From Desulfuromonadaceae bacterium (lineage in GTDB: Bacteria > Desulfobacterota > Desulfuromonadia > Desulfuromonadales > Geopsychrobacteraceae), in NCBI GenBank assembly GCA_013138655.1, contig WTCI01000119.1:1-11353 (forward strand): a stretch of DNA of 11,353 nucleotides, read 5' to 3'. Below, one piece after another: positions 1 to 11,353 of this stretch. The translations under genes were made by a program, and so were the position numbers. Every line of letters starts with the position of its first letter. The stretch's first letter is position 1. The notes beneath the pieces are model-generated. The model was given only the letters and a program-made list of their open reading frames with translations. It was not told the origin of the DNA and made no database searches.

Positions 1-353
1 ATTCTGTGCGCGATTTCATCCGTTGGTCGGCTGACGAGTTAGGCATCGGTTTGCAATTTGCGGGACGGGGAGTGGATGAAACGGCTGTCGTCACTGATAT
101 CATCGGTGAGGATGCCCCGGCATTGAAGGTGGGGGATGTCATTGTCCGGGTCGATCCCCGCTATTTTCGTCCAGCGGAAGTTGAAACCCTGTTGGGTGAC
201 CCGAGCAAAGCAAAAGAGAAGTTAGGTTGGGTGCCGGAAGTTACGGTGCAGGAGCTGTGCGCAGAGATGGTGGCGGAGGATCTCAAGGTTGCCCAGCGTC
301 ATGCGTTGTTAAAGAAGCATGGTTTTGAGATCCCGGTTTCTGTGGAGAATTGA
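1..353 (+). CDS. gmd: GDP-mannose 4,6-dehydratase, C-terminal part (5' truncated by window)
   Basis: This is the last ~116 codons of GDP-mannose 4,6-dehydratase, a cytoplasmic NADP-dependent short-chain dehydrogenase that turns GDP-D-mannose into GDP-4-keto-6-deoxy-D-mannose. The frame begins at base 3 (S-V-R-D-F) and runs to TGA at 351-353. The C-terminal signature is very close to the E. coli protein as I recall it: a [11 protein letters not shown] stretch, then [20 protein letters not shown], then KLGWVPE near the end. The catalytic N-terminal Rossmann half lies outside the window, so its active site cannot be judged. A GTG at base 6 could pass for a start, but homology plainly continues upstream of it. 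The stop codon touches the GTG start of fcl, so the two are surely co-transcribed and probably translationally coupled. Identity is near certain. Confidence 0.96.
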
Positions 354-1328
354 GTGGCTCCAGATAAAGCTAACAGGATTTTTTTTGCCGGGCACGGCGG
401 GATGGTTGGCTCGGCGATTGTCCGCCGGCTGAAATATCTCGGTGATGAAAATATCATCACCCGGAGCCGTGCTGAATTGGATCTGTTGGACCAAGCTGCG
501 GTCCGCACTTTTTTTGCAGCAGAGCAGATCGACCAGGTTTATCTTGCTGCCGCCAAAGTTGGCGGGATTCATGCCAACAATACCTATCCGGCTGAGTTTA
601 TCTACGAAAACCTGATGGTTGAGGCCAATGTTATCCATGCGGCCCATCGACAGGGAGTACAAAAACTGCTGTTCCTCGGATCTTCCTGTATCTACCCGAA
701 GTTTGCCGAGCAGCCGATGTCGGAGGAGGCTCTGCTGACCGGCGCCTTGGAGCCGACCAATGAGCCTTACGCCATTGCCAAGATCGCCGGAATCAAGCTC
801 TGCGAAAGCTATAACCGTCAGTATGGCCGCGATTACCGAAGCGTCATGCCGACCCACCTGTATGGCCCGCAGGATAATTTCCACCCCGAAAACAGCCATG
901 TGGTTCCGGCTTTACTGCGACGTTTTCACCAAGCAGTGAACAATAATGATGAAACGCTGGTCATCTGGGGCAGCGGGGCGCCGCTGCGGGAATTTTTGCA
1001 TGTTGATGATATGGCAGCGGCCTGTGTGCATGTCATGCAGCTTGATTCTGCCACCTATCAGGAGCACACCTCGCCGATGCTGTCGCACGTTAATGTCGGC
1101 TGCGGAGCCGATTGCTCCATCCGCACCCTGGCTGAGATCATCGCTAAGGTCACCGGCTTTCAGGGGGAACTGGTTTTTGATGACAGTAAGCCTGATGGGG
1201 CTCCTCGCAAGTTGTTGGATGTGTCGCGTTTGCTGGCTTTGGGCTGGCAGGCCAAAATCGGTTTGGAAGAGGGCTTGCAAGATACTTATCGGTGGTTTAA
1301 AGAAAATCAGAATAATTACAGATGCTGA
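354..1328 (+). CDS. fcl: GDP-L-fucose synthase (GDP-4-keto-6-deoxy-D-mannose 3,5-epimerase/4-reductase)
   Basis: Fcl (WcaG) epimerises and reduces the Gmd product to GDP-L-fucose, the donor for fucose in O-antigen, capsule or exopolysaccharide. The product has 324 residues, close to the usual ~320. Visible motifs are the NADP-binding GxxGxxG at G13/G16/G19, the catalytic serine in GSSCIYPK (S110, equivalent to E. coli S107), and the YxxxK pair Y139/K143 in EPYAIAK. The family blocks [22 protein letters not shown] and [12 protein letters not shown] are also present. The start is GTG, directly after the gmd stop; a GGAG at 344-347, six bases upstream, supports it. The gmd-fcl pair is the standard two-step GDP-fucose module. 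Nothing is missing or odd in the protein. A 63-bp gap follows before the scrambled heptose ORF, holding only a small GTTGAT/ATCAAC hairpin (1341-1355). Confidence 0.97.
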
Positions 1329-1391: not shown

Positions 1392-2057
1392 ATGGCTTCA
1401 ACCATTGAATCATCCCTGACCGAACATTTGGCGACAATCGAACTGGTCCGTGAACAGTTGCAGCCCGTGATTGCAGAGGTTGCCGGGAAGCTGTCTACGG
1501 CGTTGAGGTCCGGGGGGGAATTGTTGATCTGCGGCAATGGTGGTTCTGCTGCTGATGCCCAGCATTTTGCTGCAGAACTTGTCGGGCGCTTTGAGAAAGA
1601 GCGCAAGGGTTTGCCGGCAATCGCCTTGACGACCGACGCCGGACTGGTTGGTCACCACAACCAACAGGAAACCAGCCTCCTGAAGCCGCTTCAACGCCTG
1701 CGACACATGAGTCAACGTCTCCAGAAGTACGGTGTGCGCTTGTCCGGAATTTATGTCTGCCCGCATCACCCGACGGCCGGCACCGGTCAGTATCTGACGG
1801 TTTGCAATTGTCGCAAGGGAGAGCCGGGAATGCTGTTGCAGGCGGCTCAGGAGTTGACTATTGATCTGCAGCAATCGTACATGGTCGGAGACAAGGAGGC
1901 CGATATCCAGGCCGGTCAGGCGGCCGGGTGTCGATCGATTTTAGTGCAGACCGGTTATGGGTGCAGTGATACGGAAAACGCCCAGCGAGCGGGTGCAAAA
2001 ATTGTTGCGGACCTGACGGAAGCGGCAGAACAGATTCTCGCTGAGCAGAGGTTTTGA
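1392..2057 (+). CDS. Scrambled gmhA/gmhB chimera, probably non-functional
   Basis: This 221-residue ORF joins pieces of two LPS-heptose enzymes. Residues 1 to ~82 are the N-terminus of GmhA (sedoheptulose-7-phosphate isomerase), with the phosphate-binding [12 protein letters not shown] around S52 and zinc ligands H58 and E62. They end at ALTTD, where GmhA should continue with TSILT. Residues ~83-104 match neither enzyme in this frame; they are the antisense of gmhB. From about [11 protein letters not shown] (residue 104 on) the ORF is the C-terminal part of GmhB (heptose-1,7-bisphosphate phosphatase), with the zinc cluster C123-x-H125 and C138-x-C140, K142, and the acidic HAD motif D167-K-E-A-D. 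Lost are the C-terminal ~110 residues of GmhA with its later zinc ligands, and the GmhB N-terminus with the DxD nucleophile. The frame is open and could make protein, but neither activity is expected. The upstream Shine-Dalgarno is weak (AAAGAG). Automatic annotation may call it either enzyme. Confidence 0.85.
1629..1703 (-). other. Inverted ~75-bp gmhB segment inside the chimera
   Basis: Read on the minus strand, in register with the codons of the surrounding ORF, this block encodes [12 protein letters not shown] followed by [13 protein letters not shown]. This is the GmhB region ahead of and including HAD motif II (TNQSG). In gmhB it belongs upstream of the + strand sequence that resumes near 1704. 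It has therefore been flipped, and the flanking gmhA 3' end, the gmhB 5' end and about 13 codons after GVGR are gone. The left junction shares nine bases (ACGACCGAC, 1629-1637) that read Thr-Thr-Asp in gmhA and Val-Gly-Arg in inverted gmhB, so junction microhomology is possible. Exact edges are uncertain by several bases. Confidence 0.82.
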
Positions 2058-2163
2058 GAACACATTTGATTCTTTCCTCGAAATTGTAGAAATGCTATGA
2101 TCGCCTGACTTTTTGGGAAGGGATTATTAATGGCGAAAAGGGCTCTTTTATAGAACCCATACG

Positions 2164-2193
2164 CCCTTATTTATGGGGCCATAAAGGGAGGGG
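2164..2193 (+). promoter_or_regulatory. Hairpin next to the comEA ribosome binding site
   Basis: TTTATG (2170-2175) pairs with CATAAA (2180-2185) around a GGGC loop. An outer CCC (2164-2166) can pair with GGG (2186-2188) across a three-base bulge. The right arm runs into the purine-rich AGGGAGGGG Shine-Dalgarno that ends at 2193, just before the ATGATG start. Folding could partly limit ribosome access, but the GAGGGG core remains free. The rest of 2058-2163 shows no promoter I would defend. Confidence 0.3.
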
Positions 2194-2196
2194 TAA

Positions 2197-2487
2197 ATGA
2201 TGAGAATGTTGAAATGTGTTATTTTAACCCTGGTGCTGTTATTGGCACTGGGCAGTCTGCCGGTACTTGCGCAAGGTAAAGTCGTTTTGAATACGGCGAC
2301 CTTGGAGCAGCTGGTTGAGCTGAAGGGAATCGGTGATAAGACGGCGCAAAAGATCATCGATTATCGTAATGAGCACCAGGGTTTTTCCGCACTGGATGAA
2401 CTGGTCAATGTCAAAGGGATCGGAGAAAAGACCTTGGAATCTCTACTCCCCTATTTGATACTGGAAGAACCGGAAAAAACTCAGTAA
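2197..2487 (+). CDS. Small secreted ComEA-type helix-hairpin-helix protein
   Basis: This 96-residue protein has an N-terminal signal peptide (residues ~1-25: a charged start, a run of Leu/Val, then a likely cut after VLAQ). It is followed by a double helix-hairpin-helix module: LNTATLEQLVELKGIGDKTA, KIIDYRNEHQGF, then LDELVNVKGIGEKTLESL. This is the ComEA DNA-binding repeat, and the NTA-LxxLxGIG pattern is diagnostic. In competent bacteria ComEA binds incoming double-stranded DNA outside the inner membrane. Many Gram-negative genomes carry such short stand-alone proteins with unproven roles, so DNA uptake is inferred, not shown. The start may be either ATG of ATGATG (2197 or 2200); a strong AGGGAGGGG lies just upstream of both. 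No competence genes flank it. It appears monocistronic, ending at the terminator at 2517. Confidence 0.85.
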   Translation: MMRMLKCVILTLVLLLALGSLPVLAQGKVVLNTATLEQLVELKGIGDKTAQKIIDYRNEHQGFSALDELVNVKGIGEKTLESLLPYLILEEPEKTQ

Positions 2488-2516
2488 GCAACTTGATGTG
2501 AGCCGTTTTCGCACCG

Positions 2517-2548
2517 CTTGGGAGAGGAAATCCTCTCCCAAGTTTTTT
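2517..2548 (+). terminator. Intrinsic terminator of the comEA-like gene
   Basis: A perfect 12-bp stem, CTTGGGAGAGGA paired with TCCTCTCCCAAG around AA (possibly a slightly larger loop in practice), is followed by six T residues. It lies 29 bases after the comEA-like stop codon. Confidence 0.93.
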
Positions 2549-2554
2549 AGTACA

Positions 2555-2593: not shown

Positions 2594-2754
2594 CGGTCCT
2601 TTCCCGTGTTCTCGGCGTTAATCAACACGCTCACTTGTGCGGCGTACTGCTTGTATGCCTCCGCGTAACCTCTTGATTCCCCTGATCCCACAAAATTTTC
2701 TCGTTTCCGATATGGAAACTTCATCGTGTCCATCTGGAGTTTTCAGATGGACAC
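2594..2754 (-). ncRNA. Structured repeat copy A, candidate small RNA
   Basis: This 161-nt stretch on the minus strand is a diverged copy of 4191-4351 on the + strand; the two align almost without gaps at roughly three-quarters identity by eye. It starts with an 11-bp perfect hairpin (GTGTCCATCTG with CAGATGGACAC, arms 2726-2736/2744-2754). Next come the conserved GACACGATGAAG and a GTTTCC/GGAAAC hairpin (2703-2719), then GCGGAGGC and a GGCATAC/GTACGCC hairpin (2641-2659), ending near GGACCG. Stem bases differ between the copies while pairing is kept, which points to a functional RNA fold. A good promoter lies upstream on the same strand (2802-2830) and a GC-rich hairpin terminator downstream (2555-2582), giving a predicted ~235-nt transcript. 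I do not recognise the family. Confidence 0.55.
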
Positions 2755-2775
2755 CAGTTAACATGTAATTTTTGT

Positions 2776-2804
2776 TTGACCTGTACTATGCAATCCCCTA
2801 GATT
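2776..2804 (+). promoter_or_regulatory. Sigma-70-like promoter of the chemosensory operon
   Basis: TTGACC (2776-2781) and TAGATT (2799-2804) are separated by 17 bases. Transcription would begin near 2811, leaving a leader of about 87 bases before the response-regulator ATG. The -10 box overlaps that of a minus-strand promoter (2802-2807). Confidence 0.5.
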
Positions 2805-2830
2805 ACAATGTAAGAATTTTCTTATGACAA
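2802..2830 (-). promoter_or_regulatory. Sigma-70-like promoter for repeat copy A transcript
   Basis: On the minus strand TTGTCA (2830-2825) and TGTAAT (2807-2802) each match the consensus at five of six positions and are spaced 17 bases apart. The start would fall near 2795, about 40 bases ahead of repeat A. The region is AT-rich, so a chance match cannot be excluded, but both boxes and the spacing are good. Its -10 overlaps the + strand -10 at 2799-2804, making a compact divergent pair. Confidence 0.5.
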
Positions 2831-2859
2831 ATAATGAATTTTAGCGTCAGCGAGATTTT

Positions 2860-2887
2860 GGCTGTATTTTCAGCCGATATTTTTTTT
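2860..2887 (+). promoter_or_regulatory. Attenuator-like hairpin and T8 run in the operon leader
   Basis: GGCTG (2860-2864) pairs with CAGCC (2871-2875) around TATTTT. After GATA comes a run of eight T residues (2880-2887), immediately before the GGAG Shine-Dalgarno (2888-2891). The stem is only 5 bp, so termination would be weak unless assisted. Confidence 0.3.
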
Positions 2888-2897
2888 GGAGACAGCA

Positions 2898-4187
2898 ATG
2901 GCAACAGAGGGAATAAAAGTGCTTTTGGTGGACGATTCACCGACCGTCCGACGTCTGGGGGAGTTGATTCTGTCTCAGCAGGGATACCGTGTTTTCACTG
3001 CTGAAGATGGGGAACAGGGTCTGAAAATGGTCCGCAAGATAAAGCCTGCGGTCATTCTGGTTGATTTTATTATGCCGAACATGAACGGCCACACCTTCTG
3101 CCGAAGGGTTCGGCAGGACGATAGCATAAAAAATATCCCGCTTATCCTGATTTCTTCAAAGGGAGAAGCGGTCGGCGAGGCCTTTGAGAAAGAGTTCGGG
3201 GTTCTTTATTCCTTTTCCAAACCGTTTGAGCCTGATGATTTAATCAATAAGCTGGAAGAGGTTTTACGGGATGTCAAAGTCGAAGATCCGTCGGCGAATG
3301 ACGAGACTCCGGGGAATGTCGCTATGGTGACTCCTGCTGCCTTGCATGAGATGGTCGACAAGCTGTTGCGACAGTATTTTCATAAAGATTTTCCGTTATT
3401 GATGCGTAATGTCATGTCCGACATATTGTGTGATGCGGGATTAGTTAAAAAGGGGGGTGTGGTATTTTCCGGCTCCTTGGATGAAGTCCCTTTGCCTGAC
3501 GTTATAAACTTCGTCTATAACTCCCGTCTATCAGGGCGTCTGACGATCTTTTCCGCTGAAGTTTTTGGGGAAATATTTATCGAAGATGGACAGTTTATCT
3601 TCGCTTCATGCAGTGTCAAGGGGGGGCAGCTGCCTTTTCTGACCGATCTGATGTGTAAACAAAAATTCCTTCAAGCTGATGACGAAACTATTCGACAGGT
3701 CGTGACTGAGGCTCGCGAACGGGAAATGCCGATTGGCCGGATGTTGGTAGCAAAGGGTTTGGTCAGTGAACCTCAACTGATGGCTGCTTTACGTCTGCAT
3801 GCTCAGGATGCGTTTGGTTCAATCCTGGCAGCAGAAACAGGCAGTTTTTTCCTGGAACGGGATGAACTGCCGACTAATTTGCGTGATTTGCAGGTCCGGA
3901 CTCCGCTTATTAATGTGTTGATGGAAGGGCTCAGTCATCTGGACGAGCGGCATCTTGCGGCAACCGAGTTCAAGGATGAATCGATGGTTATGGTCCGCTT
4001 GATCACCAACGAAGATGCGCTGGAAACAGTTCAACTGAAACCTCGTGAACTGGACCTTTTTGCTTTGATCGATGGCCGCAAATGTCTGTCGGAGATCATT
4101 GCTGAAAGTCAGCTTGATCCTCTTGAGACAAAGAGGATCTGTTATGCTTTACGTAAAGTCGGCCTGTTACGTGTGAAAGAGGCCTAG
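2898..4187 (+). CDS. Response regulator: N-terminal REC plus PATAN/DUF4388 output domain
   Basis: This 429-residue cytoplasmic regulator starts at ATG 2898, six bases after GGAG; an in-frame TTG at 2886 lacks such spacing. Residues ~5-125 form a REC domain with all key residues: D12/D13, phosphoacceptor D56 in LVDFIMPNMNG, S86/S87 and K108 in FSKPF. From about residue 190 (FSGSLDEVPLPDVINFV, then SGRLTIF and GEIFIEDGQFIFA) comes a PATAN/DUF4388 domain. A helical C-terminal region with a DGRKCLSEII motif and a likely winged-helix-like fold follows. There is no classic DNA-binding or enzymatic output. PATAN regulators such as cyanobacterial PixG sit beside chemosensory genes and are thought to act through protein contacts, often on pili-driven motility. 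It leads an operon with the Hpt-CheW fusion and CheA, so it is the likely phosphorylation target of that kinase. The exact output is unknown. Confidence 0.88.
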   Translation: MATEGIKVLLVDDSPTVRRLGELILSQQGYRVFTAEDGEQGLKMVRKIKPAVILVDFIMPNMNGHTFCRRVRQDDSIKNIPLILISSKGEAVGEAFEKEFGVLYSFSKPFEPDDLINKLEEVLRDVKVEDPSANDETPGNVAMVTPAALHEMVDKLLRQYFHKDFPLLMRNVMSDILCDAGLVKKGGVVFSGSLDEVPLPDVINFVYNSRLSGRLTIFSAEVFGEIFIEDGQFIFASCSVKGGQLPFLTDLMCKQKFLQADDETIRQVVTEAREREMPIGRMLVAKGLVSEPQLMAALRLHAQDAFGSILAAETGSFFLERDELPTNLRDLQVRTPLINVLMEGLSHLDERHLAATEFKDESMVMVRLITNEDALETVQLKPRELDLFALIDGRKCLSEIIAESQLDPLETKRICYALRKVGLLRVKEA

Positions 4188-4190
4188 GGA

Positions 4191-4351
4191 GTGTGCATCC
4201 GAAAACTTCGGATGCAGACGATGAAGTTTTCATATGGGAAACGAGCAATTTTTTTCAAGGTCAAGGAAATCAAGCAGTTGTGCGGAGGCGTGGTTTTCTA
4301 CGCCGCACAAGCAACTGCGCAGATTGACGCAGAAATTGTGAAAAAGGGCCG
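4191..4351 (+). repeat. Structured repeat copy B in the operon's first intergenic gap
   Basis: This is the second copy of the element seen on the minus strand at 2594-2754, here transcribed within the operon mRNA between the response regulator and the Hpt-CheW gene. Hairpin 1 is GCATCCGAA/TTCGGATGC with loop AAC (4195-4215). Hairpin 2 is GTTTTC/GGAAAC around ATATG (4226-4242). A long hairpin has outer GCAGTTG/CAACTGC (4274-4280/4312-4318), inner TGC/GCA and GGCGTGG/CTACGCC with loop TTTT. Compared with copy A, the hairpin arms differ but stay paired, while GACGATGAAGTTT, GGAAACGAG, GCGGAGGC and ACGCCGCACAAG are nearly unchanged. It ends 29 bases before the next start codon, so it could affect translation or mRNA stability of hpt-cheW and cheA. 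It lacks a terminator hairpin. Confidence 0.7.
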
Positions 4352-4380
4352 TTTCCGGATGAAAACTAGGGAGATTCCCG

Positions 4381-5682
4381 ATGGATGACATACGGCAGAA
4401 GCTGTTCCCTGTTTTCCTCAAGGAGGCAGAGCAAAATCTGAGAAAGCTACGGGGCTTTCTCGCCTGTGATGCCCCGCATAAATGCTGTGCTGAAGAGCTT
4501 GAGACTGCTTTTCGCGCTGCGCATACGCTCAAAGGTACGGCGCTGCTGGTTCAGGCGGGTTCTGTTCATAAAATCAGCCGGCGTCTGGAAGCTCTATTGG
4601 AAAAGCATTTTTCCGCAGAAACGCTTCCAACACTTGTCGAGTGTGAAGCGATGAGGCTGGCTGTTGATTGGTTGGTTCTATTGATTTCTGACTTGCGGGA
4701 AGATAGTGAGGAGCCGACACAGCTTGTCAATGAGGCGCTGCAAGCGCTCGATCTGGCTGAGCGCTTTCCAGGGAAAACCCCTCTTGTTGAATTGATCGAC
4801 AGCCACTGGCAAAAACGTTCTCCGCAGCTGGATGATCCGTTCTGTGCTGATCCTGAGCTGGATATTCACGCAGACGAAATTTTGCGTGCTGAGCAAGACC
4901 CTTTTGCAGATGATCCTGGTTTCGGTTTGGAGGTTGACTTGAACAGTTGGTCGGAAAACCACGCTAAAGCTCAGGCAGACAGGCTGACTTCTGTTGTTGA
5001 CCCCTTTGCCGATGACCCTGATTTCGAGACAGAGCTTATGCTCGCGGAGCAGGAACTACCGGAAGTCGCTGACAGTACGGACACTTTATCGCAGACGTCA
5101 ACAACCTTACCTCCCGACCTTTTTGCGGATGATCCCGAGTTTGAAGCCTCATTGGCCACAGAGTTGAGCCCTGATGATTTAATCTCCGGACGGTCAGACG
5201 AAGATCTGGAGGGTTCCGGCGGACCGGAGACTGGATCATCTGTTGTCGCTGAGAGTGAAATCGGTCGCGCTGCGCAGATTGCCGAATCGTTATTACTGCC
5301 GAAAGAAGAGGACGGTCCACGGTGCGAATATGTCTGTGGTTCGTTTGCAATCGGTGGCCGGGATTATTATTTACCGATTGAACAGATGTTTGAAATTGCC
5401 GAGTTGACGCAATTGTTCCCTTTACCGTTATCACCCCCAATGGTTGTTGGTCTGATCAATCTTCGTGGGCAAGTTATCCCGGTTATCGATCTTTCTATTC
5501 TGAATCAACATCAACGGACAGAGGTTTGTAAACAGCACCGGCTGGTTGTCGCAGAATACCAAGGGGAGTTTCTGGCTTTTCTCGCGGAGGGGATCCCCTT
5601 ACTTGCTGAAGAGTTCGTTGGGGAAAAAATTGATATGCCCAAGTTTCTTTCCCTCTACCGCGTGAGGGGCTCCGAAATATGA
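4381..5682 (+). CDS. Hpt-CheW fusion coupling protein with acidic repeat linker
   Basis: This 433-residue protein has three parts. Residues 1 to ~120 are a histidine phosphotransfer (Hpt) domain with phosphorylatable H48 in AAHTLKGTALL. Residues ~150-310 are an acidic, low-complexity linker with four DPFADDPxF-like motifs starting at D152, D173, D207 and D246. Residues ~313-433 are a CheW domain, recognisable by YYLPIEQMFEI and GLINLRGQVIPVIDL. There is no ATPase domain, so it cannot autophosphorylate. It probably couples receptor and CheA as CheW does and offers an extra Hpt site to accept or buffer phosphate from REC domains. The Shine-Dalgarno is AGGGAG at 4368-4373. That purine run can also fold into a small GGGA/TCCC hairpin (4369-4379). 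The gene overlaps cheA by four bases (ATGA), so translation is probably coupled. The fusion is unusual but the domain calls are firm. Confidence 0.88.
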   Translation: MDDIRQKLFPVFLKEAEQNLRKLRGFLACDAPHKCCAEELETAFRAAHTLKGTALLVQAGSVHKISRRLEALLEKHFSAETLPTLVECEAMRLAVDWLVLLISDLREDSEEPTQLVNEALQALDLAERFPGKTPLVELIDSHWQKRSPQLDDPFCADPELDIHADEILRAEQDPFADDPGFGLEVDLNSWSENHAKAQADRLTSVVDPFADDPDFETELMLAEQELPEVADSTDTLSQTSTTLPPDLFADDPEFEASLATELSPDDLISGRSDEDLEGSGGPETGSSVVAESEIGRAAQIAESLLLPKEEDGPRCEYVCGSFAIGGRDYYLPIEQMFEIAELTQLFPLPLSPPMVVGLINLRGQVIPVIDLSILNQHQRTEVCKQHRLVVAEYQGEFLAFLAEGIPLLAEEFVGEKIDMPKFLSLYRVRGSEI

Positions 5683-7946
5683 GTATCATGGATGAGGTCT
5701 TTGGTTTTTTCGTTGAAGAGGCAAATGACCATTTGCGAATCCTCGAAGAGGGTCTTTTGCAGCTGGAAAAAAATCCAGAGCTGGTTGAGGAGTTGATTGA
5801 ACCTCTTTTCCGTGCTGCCCACACCCTGAAGGGATCTGCCAATCTGGTCAATGTGACAGATGTCGGGGTGGTTGCCCATCGTCTGGAGGATCTTCTTGAG
5901 GGAATTCGCGATGGGGAAACCAATCTGACCCTTATTCGGGCAGATGGCATGTTGTTCGCGCTTGATCAGATGCGTGAATTGATCCATTTGCGGCAGTCGA
6001 ATGAAAATGCTCCGGAAGGCATGGTTGCCGATATCCTTGCCCGCCTGGCAACTGCTGACAGCCAGGAGGATCACGAAGAACTGCAAACCGATCACTCCCC
6101 GGACGTCAGCACCTCTGCTGAAGAAGGGGCCGACCAGTATATTGGGGTGGAAAGACGAGTGCCCTCGCGACGCAAGGATGAAGTCGGGGGCGTTCGGGTC
6201 AGCATGGAACGGATTGAGTCGCTGATGGGCTTGGTCGGTGAGTTTACCGTCACCAAAAATCACCTCCTGGATCGATTGCCGATCATGGTACGGATGCAGG
6301 AAGAGGTCGATTTTGCCGGCCAGCGGCTGTTGAAAGAGGTGTCAAGTTTCTCCGAACGATATGATTACACCATGCCAACCCGGAGTTCAGACGATCGGGA
6401 CGATGCCTTCGAGGAATTGGAATTCGATCGTTATGACGAATTGAATCTTTTCTCCCGGAAATTGCGTGAAATAACTGTTGACATTGAAGAAGCACTGAAA
6501 GAGATGACAGGCTTCTTTAGGGTTTTTTCTCAGGATATCCATTCGCTTGATCGGATGACCGATGAGATGAAAGAACAGATCTCGGCGGCTCGCACCGTTC
6601 AGGCCGAGCAGTTATTCAAGCGCTTCAACCGAGCAATCCGTGATCTTGCCCAGGAACAGAATAAGCCGGTAGAACTTTGTATTTTCGGTGGTGAAACGGC
6701 GATTGACCGGGTGATATATGATGGTCTTTTTGACCCGCTGCTGCATATCATCCGCAATTGCTTTGCTCATGGAATTGAGCCGACGGAAGAGCGGTTGGAA
6801 AAAGGCAAGCCCGCGCAGGCAACGATCTGTCTGAAGGCAGAGCGGCGGGGGAATACCGTGGAGATCAGTATTGAAGATGATGGCCGAGGCATAGATCTCA
6901 AGCGGGTCAGGGAGCGGGGAATCGAAAAAGGTTTTATTGCCGAACAGGATGAACTCTCCGAGCGCGATTTGATTCAATTAATCTTCCGGCCTGGGTTTAG
7001 TACCACTCTTTCAGTGGATAGCGAATCAGGCCGTGGGGTCGGGATGAATGTTGTCATGGACCGTTTGGCACACTTGAACGGAACCATTGATGTTTGGACT
7101 AAGGCCGGAGAGGGAACCCGTTTCCGTTTGCGGCTACCGCTGTCACTGGTGATTGTTAATGTGATTCAGTTTGTCTGCGGACAATTGAAACTGGTGATTC
7201 CGTCCGCCCAAGTCGATGAAATTGTCGATTTGACGTATCGTGCGAAAGACGCAGAAAACCAGAAGAAATATCAGGGGATAGAAACCATTGACCTGGCGCG
7301 GTTGCTGAAGCTTCCGGCAGCTCAGGAAACACCGATGTTCGGCGTACTGACCCAAGCGGAAGGGACCCCCATCATGTTGTTGGTTGGTCAGGTTCTGGGC
7401 CAGGAAGATACCGTGATCAAGCCGTTTGGATCTTTTCTGGAAGAGCTGCCCTGTTTTTCCGGATCCAGCCTCGCCGGCGACGGTAGCATGCGCCTGGTGC
7501 TGAACCCGGCACGGATGAAGCGTCAAGCAGCGGAAGTGCTTGAGAGTTCAGAACCCCTGCCTGCTGCGCCTTCCTTGCCTAAGGTTCTTGTTGTTGATGA
7601 CTCTTTGAGCGTCCGTAAATATGCTAACCTGTTGTTGACATCCAAGGGTTTTTCCGTGGTTACTGCAAATAATGGTGAAGACGCTTTGGAAAAATTGCAA
7701 GAGGAGAATATTTTTTCGATCATCACTGACCTGGAAATGCCGATCATGCATGGGTATGACCTGTTGCGTGAATTGCAGGACAGGAACCTGGGGCATATAC
7801 CGGTCGCGGTGTTGACGTCACGGGCCGGGGAACAACACCGCAAAGAGGCGTTATCTCTCGGGGCGACCGATTATTTGGTGAAACCTTTTGAAGAAGAGAG
7901 TCTGCTCAGTGTTGTTACACGGCACCAGCAAATAATGAGATCTTGA
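5679..7946 (+). CDS. cheA: Hybrid chemotaxis histidine kinase CheA (PilL/ChpA-like) with C-terminal REC
   Basis: This 755-residue cytoplasmic kinase has its domains in order. Hpt is at ~1-105 (H48 in AAHTLKGSANL). An acidic linker without a clear P2 domain runs to ~170. The dimerisation region is at ~172-335 (SMERIESLMGLVGEF) and carries an insert rich in Asp/Glu. The HATPase is at ~345-487, with N-box N360 and HGIE, G1 around D400-D-G-R-G, an RPGFSTT F-box and G2 SGRGVGMNVV near 451. The CheW-like P5 domain is at ~490-615. REC is at ~634-755, with D640/D641, phosphoacceptor D684 in TDLEMP, TS and K in VKPF. All catalytic boxes are intact, so it should be active. The C-terminal REC is typical of PilL/ChpA/FrzE kinases that drive surface or pilus motility rather than classic flagellar CheA. 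GAGGGG precedes the ATG, and the ATG overlaps the hpt-cheW stop. The symbol is a family label. Confidence 0.93.
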   Translation: MSIMDEVFGFFVEEANDHLRILEEGLLQLEKNPELVEELIEPLFRAAHTLKGSANLVNVTDVGVVAHRLEDLLEGIRDGETNLTLIRADGMLFALDQMRELIHLRQSNENAPEGMVADILARLATADSQEDHEELQTDHSPDVSTSAEEGADQYIGVERRVPSRRKDEVGGVRVSMERIESLMGLVGEFTVTKNHLLDRLPIMVRMQEEVDFAGQRLLKEVSSFSERYDYTMPTRSSDDRDDAFEELEFDRYDELNLFSRKLREITVDIEEALKEMTGFFRVFSQDIHSLDRMTDEMKEQISAARTVQAEQLFKRFNRAIRDLAQEQNKPVELCIFGGETAIDRVIYDGLFDPLLHIIRNCFAHGIEPTEERLEKGKPAQATICLKAERRGNTVEISIEDDGRGIDLKRVRERGIEKGFIAEQDELSERDLIQLIFRPGFSTTLSVDSESGRGVGMNVVMDRLAHLNGTIDVWTKAGEGTRFRLRLPLSLVIVNVIQFVCGQLKLVIPSAQVDEIVDLTYRAKDAENQKKYQGIETIDLARLLKLPAAQETPMFGVLTQAEGTPIMLLVGQVLGQEDTVIKPFGSFLEELPCFSGSSLAGDGSMRLVLNPARMKRQAAEVLESSEPLPAAPSLPKVLVVDDSLSVRKYANLLLTSKGFSVVTANNGEDALEKLQEENIFSIITDLEMPIMHGYDLLRELQDRNLGHIPVAVLTSRAGEQHRKEALSLGATDYLVKPFEEESLLSVVTRHQQIMRS

Positions 7947-8029
7947 AAAACCACTGAGCCTTGTAGAACCAAATTTTTGCTCAGCCATCTCAAGGTTTTT
8001 TGCGAAAGTATCGGTCTTTGATTGTAAGT

Positions 8030-8061
8030 AAAATGGCGAGCCATACGGCTCGCCATTTTTT
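8030..8061. terminator. Bidirectional terminator between cheA and the convergent MCP gene
   Basis: AAAATGGCGAGCC pairs perfectly with GGCTCGCCATTTT around ATAC (13 bp), followed by TT on the + strand and with a matching T tract on the minus strand. It lies between two convergent stop codons (7946 and 8117), so it should serve both transcripts. Confidence 0.93.
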
Positions 8062-8116
8062 GTGTCCAGATATTTAAACTATCGCTGAGCCGACCGGGGC
8101 GGCCTGTTTGTCGCTG

Positions 8117-10030
8117 TTATCCGCTTCCCGTGACAGGAAAAGTATTCGCGACAATATCATCTTCGGCAGCATCAGCACCGATCTCTGTCGGTTCTTCTGC
8201 CGCAGACAACTGGAATTGTCCAAGCGACTGGAGGAGCGATTCAGAAACACCATTAAGACCTTCCGAAATCTGCGAAGAGCTGGTAATTAATGAAGAGGTG
8301 CCGGCAGTGATTTCTGCCATCTTGAGAATCGTGACAACCATGCCGTCAGAAATTTTCTGCTGCTCCTGGGAAAGCTTGGTGATTTCTGTAACCACCTGCT
8401 TCGATTCATTGGTTGCTTGATGGATTGCAGCCAGTGCTTCACCAGTATCTTGGGCGACCCGTGTTTGTTCTTCAACGGTGCTGGTTTCTTCTTCCAGGGA
8501 GACGGTGACTTCATTGGCGACCGACTGGATTGCCTTGATGATCCCACCGATTTGCCGGGTCGCCTCTGAGGACTCGTCGGCGAGTCGCTTGATCTCATCA
8601 GAGATGACCAGAAAACCGCGCCCCTGTTCACCGGCTCGTGATGCTTCGATAGAGGCGTTCATAGCCAATATGGTGGTCCGGGTTGCCACATCTGAAATCA
8701 ATTGAGAAATAGTGCCGATTTCGAGCAGGCGTTCAGCCAGGGTTTTCATCTTTTTATTGATGACCTGCACGGTGACGCGAATTAACTGCATCCCTTCGAT
8801 GCTATGGTTAACTCGCTCATGACCGAGAGACGTTGCTTCATCGACCTTGGTTGAAGCCTGTTGGGCGAGAGCCGTTTTATTGGCGATCTGGGTCGCTGAA
8901 GCGGCGGTATCTTTAGCGGCGTCCGTCGCATTGGTAACATGCTGCAACTGGCTATCAGCACCTTCTTTCATGCTCTGGAAAATTTCCAGCAGTTGGCGTG
9001 ATTCTTCACCGACTTCTTCCGCATTGATGGTCGTGTCGGTCAAAAGGTCAGCCAAACTCTCAATCATCAGGTTATAGGCGTCGGCGATCGAACCGAAAGC
9101 ATCATTGGTCACCGGTGCCCGAAGAGTCAGGTCGCCGTCTGCTGCTTCACTGACAACTTCAAGGAAGTTGATGACATTTTCCTCGGTAGCCTGACGTTGT
9201 TCATCTGTTTTCAGATAAGCCTTGATGCGGTCAATGGTTGCATTGAAAATGCGGGCAATTTCGGCAAATTCATCTTTTGAAGTTACTGAAAGTTCAACAA
9301 TTTCTCCCTGGCCGACGGCTTCAATCCCCTCCATTATCTGATTGAGTGGCATGGTGATTCGATTAGAAACATAAAGACCGGCGAGAACACTAAGGAGGAT
9401 CATCCCCAGGCTTAATCCCAGCAGGGTGGCAACCATTTTAGCTTCAAAGGTGACAGCAGCTTGTCTTTGCGAATCCATCGACCGGCTCAGATGGTTTCTC
9501 AGTTTCCCGATACTCTCTTCCAGGGTATTAACACTGTTATTGTAATCAGTGTGGAGTTGTGAAACATTGGGAAAACTTTTTCCAGCAAGAATCTCGCTTG
9601 CCAGTGGGCGGAGATGATTCATCGTTGCGTTATGAGCTATGCGGATATCGTTTCTCAGTTTACGGCCAGTTTCCTGATCAGAGAAGTTGCCGCTATCAGC
9701 AAAAATAATGGCTTTTAACGCCGGTGGAATTTTCTTGTAGGTGGTAAAGAGTTCGGTATGAAGCTTCCCTTGTTTCTTTTTCAGCTCCGGTGTGTTGCCG
9801 AGGCGGGAGAAAAGGAAAAACTCCTTTTCATAAAGACGTGCCTTGGCAGTTATGGCATCAAGGTTATATGTGGCTTTAAGTGCCGGCAACTGGGGGGTTT
9901 TGTATTGCTCAAGTACCCGCGATAGGCCGTAAAGGGAGGCACCACCGACAACGATGGAAATGATAACCATCAACATGACCAATGCCAGCAACTTGGTTCT
10001 GATTCTCAGTCCTGATGTTTTAACTGCCAT
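8117..10030 (-). CDS. Methyl-accepting chemotaxis protein, membrane-anchored with HAMP
   Basis: This 637-residue receptor is convergent to the chemosensory operon. Transmembrane helix 1 spans ~14-36. A periplasmic helical sensor of ~160 residues follows, with no family I can name. TM2 is at ~201-223. Next comes a HAMP domain (residues ~224-277, with ITMPLNQIMEGIEAVGQGE) and a second HAMP-like stretch (SEAADGDLTLRAPVTNDAFG). A long coiled-coil signalling domain has its tip near residue 470: EASRAGEQGRGF then SDEIKRLADESSEAT. The tip differs a little from the common AVVADEVRKLAE form and resembles PilJ receptors, fitting the PilL-like CheA next door. The tail ends acidic, with no NWETF-type CheR/CheB tether. 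I chose ATG at 10030, nine bases after GGAG; an in-frame TTG at 10045 would overlap that site. The ligand is unknown. The pairing with the neighbouring kinase is inferred from position. Confidence 0.92.
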   Translation of the reverse strand: MAVKTSGLRIRTKLLALVMLMVIISIVVGGASLYGLSRVLEQYKTPQLPALKATYNLDAITAKARLYEKEFFLFSRLGNTPELKKKQGKLHTELFTTYKKIPPALKAIIFADSGNFSDQETGRKLRNDIRIAHNATMNHLRPLASEILAGKSFPNVSQLHTDYNNSVNTLEESIGKLRNHLSRSMDSQRQAAVTFEAKMVATLLGLSLGMILLSVLAGLYVSNRITMPLNQIMEGIEAVGQGEIVELSVTSKDEFAEIARIFNATIDRIKAYLKTDEQRQATEENVINFLEVVSEAADGDLTLRAPVTNDAFGSIADAYNLMIESLADLLTDTTINAEEVGEESRQLLEIFQSMKEGADSQLQHVTNATDAAKDTAASATQIANKTALAQQASTKVDEATSLGHERVNHSIEGMQLIRVTVQVINKKMKTLAERLLEIGTISQLISDVATRTTILAMNASIEASRAGEQGRGFLVISDEIKRLADESSEATRQIGGIIKAIQSVANEVTVSLEEETSTVEEQTRVAQDTGEALAAIHQATNESKQVVTEITKLSQEQQKISDGMVVTILKMAEITAGTSSLITSSSQISEGLNGVSESLLQSLGQFQLSAAEEPTEIGADAAEDDIVANTFPVTGSG

Positions 10031-10084
10031 AACATTTTTCTCCAAGAACGACTTTTATGGGGAGGTAAAAATCAAATTTTTCCA

Positions 10085-10113
10085 ATAATAGGGAAATAGC
10101 ATAAAAATTTCAA
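10085..10113 (-). promoter_or_regulatory. Sigma-70-like promoter of the MCP gene
   Basis: On the minus strand TTGAAA (10113-10108) and TATTAT (10090-10085) are separated by exactly 17 bases, each matching five of six consensus positions. The start would be near 10078, giving a leader of about 48 bases. No sigma-54 or flagellar sigma-28 pattern is visible. Positions 10114-10187 hold nothing else I can name. Confidence 0.65.
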
Positions 10114-10187
10114 TATTTATTAGGGTGATCAGGGATATTTTTTACATATTTGTGACTCTGCCGGGAGACTGTCGATGAGATGGTCTT

Positions 10188-10355
10188 CTAGGAGGTTGTC
10201 CGAGAATACGAGCCGTAGCGAGAAATCGGCTGTTCGAGGGCAGATTTTCGTAGGTTTGAGAGCGAATAGCATCGCTATTTGTCGAAAACTTACGGAAATA
10301 TGAACCGATCAGACGGTTTCGCAGTAGGTTCTTGTATTGTCGGACAGCCTCCTAG
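10188..10355. mobile_element. MITE-like fold-back element bounded by CTAG
   Basis: The ends are 24-base terminal inverted repeats: CTAGGAGGTTGTCCGAGAAT at 10188 onward matches the reverse complement of the right end at 10332-10355, with three mismatches over the 24. Inside, AGCCG/CGGCT (10211-10231) and AACCG/CGGTT (10303-10318) form a hairpin on each side. CGAATAGC/GCTATTTG around ATC (10263-10281) forms the centre, extended by CGTAGGTTT/AAACTTACG. The whole element folds as a clover-like structure and carries no ORF of its own. CTAG or TA at the outer edge fits insertion by an IS5- or IS630-type transposase, which prefer such targets. Because CTAG is palindromic, the target duplication cannot be separated from the repeat. 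No transposase is in the window. Confidence 0.7.
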
Positions 10356-10521
10356 GGGTAATGGAAGTCCAGGGCGATAACGTGCGAAGAGGTCTTTGTT
10401 CTGGTAGTTGGGGGGTCGTGTTGTACAAGGGCGGACTTTTTGCGACGCCAGTGTATTCTTTTTTTGCGAGACCATCAAAATTGATTGATCGGCGGCAATT
10501 TCAGCTCCGCAGTATTTTTGT

Positions 10522-10550
10522 TTGCAAATCTTCCCCCGGCATGCTAGAAA
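10522..10550 (+). promoter_or_regulatory. Promoter of the tRNA cluster
   Basis: TTGCAA (10522-10527) and TAGAAA (10545-10550) are 17 bases apart, and a GC-rich stretch follows the -10, as is usual for growth-controlled stable RNA promoters. Transcription would begin ~45 bases ahead of tRNA-Arg. Positions 10356-10521 between the fold-back element and this promoter show no gene or structure I can support. Confidence 0.45.
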
Positions 10551-10603
10551 CGCAGCCTGCCGCCGATGGTCCGCGCCTGAAGCTTGCGGTCTTAAGTGGC
10601 TGC

Positions 10604-10680
<77 letters not shown>

Positions 10681-10701
10681 TTTTTTAAATTGACAATGAC
10701 A

Positions 10702-10730
10702 GGCCATTTCCGTAACATGGCCGAGTTTTT
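10702..10730 (+). other. Hairpin with T tract between tRNA-Arg and tRNA-His
   Basis: GGCCAT (10702-10707) pairs with ATGGCC (10717-10722) around nine bases, then GAG and TTTTT. It could be a weak terminator, a processing signal, or chance. It lies directly ahead of tRNA-His. Confidence 0.3.
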
Positions 10731-10809
<79 letters not shown>

Positions 10810-10817
10810 ATAAATAT

Positions 10818-10876
10818 AATGCTCACCTTCCGCACTCAGTTAGCCCGTTAACGGGTGGGTATGGGAGGTGAGCATT
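10818..10876. repeat. Long nested hairpin between tRNA-His and tRNA-Leu
   Basis: AATGCTCACCTTCC (10818-10831) pairs with GGGAGGTGAGCATT (10863-10876), 14 bp with a single wobble. Inside it the perfect palindrome CCCGTTAACGGG (10844-10855) forms a second hairpin. No T tract follows, so it is not a standard terminator. It fills nearly the whole tRNA-His to tRNA-Leu gap. It may be a REP-like mobile palindrome or a processing signal. Confidence 0.6.
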
Positions 10877-10894
10877 GTTAATTTTAGCTTGTAC

Positions 10895-10979
10895 GCGGGC
10901 GTGGCGGAATTGGTAGACGCGCTAGATTTAGGATCTAGTGTCTTATGGCGTGGGAGTTCGAGTCTCCCCGCCCGCACCA
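10895..10979 (+). tRNA. tRNA-Leu (anticodon UAG)
   Basis: An 85-base tRNA with the long variable arm of leucine tRNAs and encoded CCA (10977-10979). The acceptor GCGGGCG pairs perfectly with CGCCCGC, discriminator A. The anticodon stem CTAGA/TCTAG holds TTTAGGA, anticodon TAG, reading CUN codons. Confidence 0.97.
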
Positions 10980-11016
10980 TGCAATTAAAATTCCATATGA
11001 GCAACTGAGGTCAGCA

Positions 11017-11049
11017 TATAATTTGAACAAGCCCCTTGATAATCGGGGC
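11017..11049 (+). promoter_or_regulatory. Possible -10 box and leader hairpin of tig
   Basis: A perfect TATAAT lies at 11017-11022, but no good -35 is found at 16-18 bases upstream. It is followed by a GCCCC/GGGGC hairpin (11031-11035/11045-11049) in the putative leader, 58 to 30 bases ahead of the tig start codon. Read-through from the tRNA cluster is an alternative. Confidence 0.35.
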
Positions 11050-11079
11050 GAAAATCAAGAAACCGGGAAGGATAAGCTT

Positions 11080-11353
11080 ATGAGTGTCACTGTTGAAGAG
11101 TTGAGCAGCATCAAGAAAAAGCTGACGATTGAGGTCGCAGCGGATATTGTTGCTGAGGAACTGGAGAATGGCTATAAAAAAGTTGCCAAAACAGCCAATA
11201 TCAAGGGCTTTCGTAAAGGGAAGATTCCCAAGGCGATGTTGGAGCAGCACTATGGGCCACGTGTTCAGTACGACGCGATCAACTCTCTGGTGAACAACAG
11301 TCTTTATAAGTCGATGGTTGAACATAAAATTGAAGCGGTTTCTCAACCTGAGA
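11080..11353 (+). CDS. tig: Trigger factor, N-terminal part (3' truncated by window)
   Basis: Trigger factor is the ribosome-bound chaperone and peptidyl-prolyl isomerase that first meets nascent chains at the exit tunnel. The window holds its first 91 codons. The start ATG follows GGGAAGGA (~11065-11072) at good spacing. The ribosome-docking signature GFRKGKIP is present, with G43-F44-R45-K46 at the same positions as in E. coli, and the protein opens with the typical beta-strand/helix N-terminal domain (VTVEELSSIKKKLTIEV). The PPIase and C-terminal domains are beyond the edge. In Desulfuromonadales tig is usually followed by clpP, clpX and lon, which I expect but cannot see. The gene directly follows the tRNA cluster on the same strand. 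Confidence 0.96.
   Translation, partial: MSVTVEELSSIKKKLTIEVAADIVAEELENGYKKVAKTANIKGFRKGKIPKAMLEQHYGPRVQYDAINSLVNNSLYKSMVEHKIEAVSQPE

Follow-up and report, generated by a model that had tools for sequence, protein, structure and literature searches.

What is a gene that begins as the phosphoheptose isomerase GmhA, ends as GmhB and reads, between the two, like neither enzyme? The question is raised by an open frame of 221 codons in the window, by which we mean the whole stretch of DNA that was analysed. The window comprises 11,353 bases and is the entire contig C89 of its own genome, G000, an assembly of 2.45 Mb in 364 contigs with a completeness of 93.1% and a contamination of 1.1% (figures as supplied) which, judging from its fragmentation, is a metagenome bin. 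An earlier note, made from the letters of the window, had read the frame as a fusion of gmhA and gmhB in which a piece of gmhB was flipped between two deletions.

The three-piece structure of the frame is confirmed and lies far beyond chance. Translated from the plus strand, the 221 residues contain a SIS_2 domain (residues 14-87) and a HAD hydrolase domain (residues 140-211); the phosphoheptose isomerase model NF010546 aligns to residues 3-86 (model positions 5-88 of 197), the GmhB model NF006506 to residues 104-219 (model positions 72-181 of 182), and the reading between the GmhA and GmhB parts resembles neither enzyme. On the minus strand, a frame over 1410-1874 matches GmhB positions 29-60 (NF006506, E 3.6e-7), and a scan of the own genome with the same model finds G000:C89:1626-1721 in the same orientation (E 1.0e-6). 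DNA of the congener G001 aligns to the window in three blocks, namely 543-1637 forward (75%, unbroken from fcl into gmhA), 1636-1702 reversed (88%, E 1.7e-16) and 1746-1960 forward (73%), and that of a second relative, G009, aligns at 1527-1636 forward, 1636-1706 reversed (82%) and 1750-1960 forward. The three DNA blocks from both relatives and the minus-strand match to NF006506 thus bear out the flipped gmhB piece between two deletions, and all three pieces indeed share one open frame. Some of the sizes given earlier need adjustment: the inverted piece is present but measures 67-71 bp in the alignments instead of about 75 bp, and gmhB codons are missing on both sides of it, but those after the piece number 15-16 rather than about 13, with about 33 missing before it (both by count on the G001 protein). 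The features are compiled in the table.

Features of the window at and around the fused frame
Feature	Position	Strand	Basis and remarks
gmd 3' end (GDP-mannose 4,6-dehydratase)	3..353	+	TIGR01472, E 2.6e-23, partial; gene cut by the contig start
fcl, GDP-L-fucose synthase	354..1328	+	NF047922, over cut-off; intact upstream neighbour, syntenic with G001
Fused frame, 221 codons: GmhA codons 1-82, antisense gmhB piece, GmhB C-terminal part	1392..2057	+	Domain and family matches
gmhA remnant, N-terminal 82 codons, ending ...ALTTD	1392..1637	+	NF010546 positions 5-88/197; 75% DNA identity to G001
Inverted gmhB piece	1636..1706	-	Identity on the opposite strand: 88% with G001 (67 nt), 82% with G009 (71 nt); NF006506 minus-strand match
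gmhB 3' remnant	about 1707-2057	+	Hydrolase_like, E 7.9e-18; NF006506 positions 72-181/182; later HAD motif region kept, motif I absent
Segment with second copy on C141 of the same genome	2064..2551	+	97.7% identity, 11 mismatches
comEA-like helix-hairpin-helix gene	2197..2487	+	TIGR00426, over cut-off; follows gmhB in several relatives

A single open frame that starts with the gmhA start and joins two well-conserved parental segments might be taken for a working new protein under selection. The openness of the frame as a sign of function was ruled out by simulation: when gmhA, a reversed gmhB piece and the gmhB 3' part were joined at random places near the breakpoints, using nine relatives and 20,000 joins each, the frame stayed open in 15% of the joins on average (range 12-17%). 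The open frame is therefore weak evidence and needs no special explanation. Nor is there a homologue of such an architecture in the genomes compared. Matches that cover the GmhA part together with the C-terminal part of GmhB occur in 0 of the 59 relatives, the widest match across the joint being a weak one in G009:C26 (residues 16-159, 29% identity, E 6.2e-6). A scan of GTDB, from which 80 of 575 loci were kept, likewise gave no match reaching from before residue 60 to beyond residue 150, with both gmhA and gmhB detectable by tblastn in 27 of the 80. The same 221-residue protein, which if conserved in orthologues under purifying selection had been put forward as a finding that would refute the proposed rearrangement, is thus lacking in both sets.

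The catalytic residues point in the same direction. GmhB requires the motif-I aspartates together with motif II, and GmhA requires residues of its second half. In the fused frame HAD motif I (DxDGT) is absent from the sense strand, while it is present in the related loci L036 and L037, and motif II, TNQSG, sits on the minus strand within 1636-1706. The product also remains below the cut-offs of both families, with 86.1 bits against 276 for NF010546 and 70 against 209.45 for TIGR00441 on the GmhA side, and 107.9 against 178 for NF006506 and 90 against 149.6 for TIGR00213 on the GmhB side. Judged by these motifs, neither enzyme would have its active core whole, as the second half of GmhA and motif I of GmhB are gone and motif II is reversed, and a product of this composition should not make heptose. 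We consider a new working gene most unlikely.

Which arrangement preceded the fusion can be approached through the relatives. On one strand of a G001 contig, part of which is masked, the order is fcl, gmhA, a gene of 324 amino acids, hldE, gmhB, comEA and an epimerase gene; the 324-aa gene belongs to the GSU2086 family (NCBI). The window tracks G001 from fcl into gmhA, and both G001 and G009 from gmhB into comEA, a gene that lies just 3' of gmhB in five of twelve loci by tblastn (L036, L037, L039, L045 and L048). By arithmetic from the DNA matches, the break corresponds to about 2,970 bases of the G001 layout, of which about 70 are kept in reversed orientation. If the parent was like G001, about 2.9 kb would have been lost, including hldE and the GSU2086 family gene. 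The earlier claim that the 3' end of gmhA and the 5' end of gmhB were deleted stands, but it had missed these two genes, which lie between them in the nearest syntenic relative.

We prefer the G001 layout, since G001 is a congener and likewise has fcl next to gmhA. Of the 59 relatives, 24 have a gmhA-type and then a gmhB-type match on one strand of one contig and no more than 15 kb apart, with 1.9 to 13.8 kb separating them; one further relative, G059, has a spacing of 33 kb, and in G009 the gmd-fcl stretch and a heptosyltransferase gene also sit between the two. As the spacing varies in this way, the loss may have been smaller or larger than 2.9 kb. The notion that gmhA and gmhB are never side by side in relatives was ruled out by four of the 80 GTDB loci (L069, L071, L072 and L083), in which the intact genes are directly adjacent in that order. 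Such normal adjacent genes, which had been named as a mark of an assembly artefact, are thus seen here in loci from other bacteria. If the parent resembled these four loci, the loss would amount to only some hundreds of bases, with hldE outside it. The reverse order gmhB-gmhA occurs in L113 and L141. At G042:C6 6717-7342, L113 about 5900-6936 and L141 5725-6913, a gmhA-like gene immediately follows a gmhB-like one, the gmhB-like part of L113 being the C-terminal half of a 418-aa frame.

The junctions bear on how the pieces might have been joined. The left joint of the window reads ACGACCGAC, and the earlier note had taken this nine-base word to fit both parents. Its fit to gmhA holds, with exact matches in L036 and L043. 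The fit to gmhB is doubtful, as it needs a glycine where the same-order loci, which read Gly-(Val/Ile)-Ala-Arg, have alanine. This holds for 34/34 gmhB-bearing loci in the same-order set (45 loci from 25 distinct genomes by our own count, some of them from the same genome), as it did for 16/16 gmhB loci in an earlier, smaller set (23 same-order loci given); among the wider GTDB loci (80 given), alanine occupies the position in 25/36 and glycine in 11/36. Depending on the lost codons, the overlap at the left joint is probably 2-4 bases and at most 9, and codon reading gives 0-6 bases at the right joint, so microhomology at the joints is possible. Hairpins at the breakpoints are mostly unremarkable: of the six stretches folded as DNA, five scored like their shuffled versions (z from -0.74 to +0.74), and the gmhB region of L037 gave -2.29.

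Should the fusion be real, the cell would have to do without the parental genes or use other copies. Further copies were sought in the own genome. Another gmhA was found neither by protein comparison nor by family model (only a weak SIS match on C43), another gmhB was not found by family model (only a weak match on C292), and comparison with the DNA of the congener gave no further intact copy, only short matches on C77 and C287. Neither parental gene is thus intact at this locus or elsewhere in the assembly. In addition, the own genome has no hldE over the cut-off (one 19-bit match) and no heptosyltransferase of family PF01075 (Glyco_transf_9), for which seven of the ten genomes searched have matches; the Kdo transferase gene waaA (PF04413) was not found in the own genome, in G002, in G005 or in G007. 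On the face of this gene content, the cell could not synthesize ADP-heptose. The absence of heptosyltransferase and waaA as support for pathway loss is undone, however, by kdsA, which is intact and over the cut-off in the own genome; a kdsA without waaA is likewise found in G002 and G007. With kdsA intact and waaA missing, the absence of LPS genes from this assembly is therefore an unreliable sign of loss, and the missing hldE may reflect a gap. As a cell would have little use for Kdo if it lacked the transferase, these data suggest that it is the assembly, and not the cell, that lacks LPS-core genes. The hldD gene proved uninformative as a pathway marker, as 0 of 10 genomes of the genus exceed the TIGR02197 cut-off. 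A further congener (G003, 99% complete) carries gmhA at G003:C72 (L044) 4547-5122 as well as waaA and Glyco_transf_9, whereas hldE does not pass its cut-off there and gmhB gives no match; visual inspection places this gmhA among glycosyltransferase-like frames and close to a GSU2086-like one.

How old the rearrangement might be was addressed by comparing nonsynonymous and synonymous differences. For the gmhA remnant, pN/pS is 0.27 and 0.38 between the window and G001 and G009, respectively, and 0.41 between the two relatives; the corresponding values are 0.34, 0.35 and 0.38 for the gmhB 3' remnant, and 0.10, 0.16 and 0.06 for the reversed piece on its own strand (23 codons). The intact fcl gives 0.18-0.19. 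In comparison with G001 and G009 the remnants thus display no sign of decay, and they contain no stop and no frameshift. The event is accordingly recent relative to the split from G001 and G009, or else it is not real. Synonymous differences from these two are near saturation (pS 0.42-0.75), which gives the test low power, and an event dating back to the divergence from the near-twins, at 97-98% identity, would therefore look the same.

This blindness at the 2-3% scale of the near-twins leaves room for the heptose branch of LPS synthesis having been lost throughout the clade before the split from G002 and G005, in which case the contig would keep a relic. In the near-twins (84% and 81% complete, respectively) gmhA and gmhB gave no convincing match and hldE did not pass its cut-off, and waaA was found in none of the three genomes. 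They also lack the gmd-fcl stretch, however, and the locus is therefore simply not in their assemblies. In addition, remnants without stop or frameshift look constrained, and kdsA is over the cut-off in both the own genome and G002. We thus hold such an old loss to be improbable. G002 matches the window from 2610 to 11353 at 98%, and in the place taken by comEA in the window, directly 5' of the che genes, it carries an ISL3 transposase remnant beside a truncated epimerase gene (L157, G002:C25 1-810); in G005 the 3' end of comEA leads into the che genes just as in the window (97%). As G002 illustrates, this part of the chromosome is rearranging within the clade, which speaks for a real event.

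The lack of decay would be expected just as well if the junction had never existed in a cell. It might be a chimera made in the laboratory or during assembly, by template switching during whole-genome amplification or library PCR, or by faulty joining or gap filling in a strain-mixed bin of low coverage; the cells would then have kept intact gmhA, hldE and gmhB, and their true sequence would be absent from the assembly. The under-assembled LPS core, waaA missing beside an intact kdsA as in G002 and G007, agrees with this possibility, and so does the state of the bin. The comEA segment exists in two versions in the own genome, window 2064-2551 and C141 (L156) 1244-757, which differ by five synonymous and no amino-acid changes within comEA; this doubling is either a strain mixture or a real duplication at a rearrangement. 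On C141 the comEA copy is followed by an epimerase gene, as comEA is in G001, and flanked on its other side by a TonB-receptor gene, with no gmhB. The 5' end of the trigger-factor gene (tig) also has a second version, window 11058-11353 against C26 (L164) 10690-10395 at 89.5%, with mismatches mostly within 11058-11250; the C26-like version is carried by G002 and G005. With two segments each in two versions, the bin looks mixed. Dispersed repeats at 10188-10356, 4190-4369 and 2594-2764 of the window recur many times in the own genome and, according to the element, also in G002, G005 and G006; among the matches listed, several copies lie at contig ends of the own genome, and they probably add to its fragmentation into 364 contigs.

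There is also a precedent for chimeras of this kind. In one multiple displacement amplification (MDA) reaction described in the part of Lasken and Stockwell 2007 drawn on here (PMC1855051), inversions made up 406 of 475 chimeras, in 337 of these the joined segments lay less than 10 kb apart, and more than 70% of the junctions had 2-21 nt of complementarity. Like these chimeras, the locus joins nearby segments in inverted orientation with an intervening deletion and, possibly, short complementarity. As characterized there, they have one junction, whereas at the locus there are two, and a chimera would need a second switch that leads back to the original strand. A single chimeric molecule would moreover have to prevail over the true path at either side. 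The possible overlaps at the joints, at most nine bases, fall short of the words used by assemblers, so that a pure graph error looks improbable and there should have been reads that contain the junctions. A chimera from laboratory or assembly thus remains a serious competitor, to which we assign somewhat less than an even chance.

Weighing these points, we give about an even chance to a real and recent mutation in the sampled population, consisting of deletion, inversion and deletion; set against a chimera, it is slightly favoured. In its support, both flanks are intact and ordered as in the relatives, fcl to gmhA as in G001 and gmhB to comEA as in G001 and G009. Against it count the missing decay, which fits an artefact equally well, the single instance, the hole in the LPS genes, the mixed bin and the mostly unremarkable breakpoint hairpins. 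In this reading, one complex rearrangement would have struck an LPS/surface-sugar cluster that, by analogy with G001, most likely had the former order fcl-gmhA-(GSU2086-like)-hldE-gmhB-comEA. DNA synthesis may have left gmhA after codon 82 and switched to the opposite strand inside gmhB, from which about 70 bases would have been copied backwards. A second jump would have brought it back, to resume gmhB about 16 codons further on, with everything between lost except the flipped piece. A cell that carries the fusion and no other copies would be expected to have heptose-less (deep-rough) LPS. It might be speculated further that the sample caught a wild population soon after a two-switch replication error that deleted its LPS heptose genes and left the flipped scrap at the joint, the junction having been raised by selection for heptose-less LPS, e.g. 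by phage, which would provide a natural case of template switching, resolved to the base, in an uncultured bacterium; this fuller scenario we regard as rather unlikely.

If the rearrangement is real, the locus would provide a clean natural inversion flanked by deletions, a kind of event that the cited parts of the literature otherwise describe from laboratory E. coli, and would predict a heptose-less surface for an uncultured bacterium. If it is an artefact, it is a warning that an open frame with two good domain matches may lead to a chimera being annotated as a bifunctional protein. In either case a new enzyme is very unlikely.

Each element of the proposed event has a counterpart in systems already described. 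Fusions born of deletions, through which the 5' part of one gene and the 3' part of another come to share an open frame, are reported in the cited part of Kaul et al. 2026 (PMC12803068), including two from Mycobacterium in which the parental catalytic motifs were lost and no immediate function was apparent. Similarly, parts of two genes that are separate in G001 are united here in one frame. The locus differs from the fusions as described there by the reversed 70-bp piece of one parent at the joint, and in resting on one assembled contig, whereas those fusions rest on isolates and large genome collections. For starving E. coli, the cited part of Lin et al. 2011 (PMC3161906) describes inversions with small losses or gains at their flanks and proposes two template switches in one fork. 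An inverted segment with flanking deletions is what the window contains, and its geometry fits, but the losses in E. coli, as given there, are of tens of base pairs, while the locus may be short of about 2.9 kb on one side, if the G001 layout applies, and its inverted piece is very short. With regard to the phenotype, E. coli C resistant to PhiX174 was found to carry mutations in hldE, waaC and gmhB (PMC10368449, in the part cited), and loss of hldE, waaC or gmhB function would in both cases lead to heptose-less or heptose-poor LPS. Those phage-selected mutants, according to the same text, are a laboratory strain with single mutations, whereas the present case would be a compound rearrangement in an uncultured organism with a predicted phenotype. 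Thus, nothing at this locus is a new type of system: fusion by deletion, a reversed segment between losses and the loss of heptose genes are all of known kinds.
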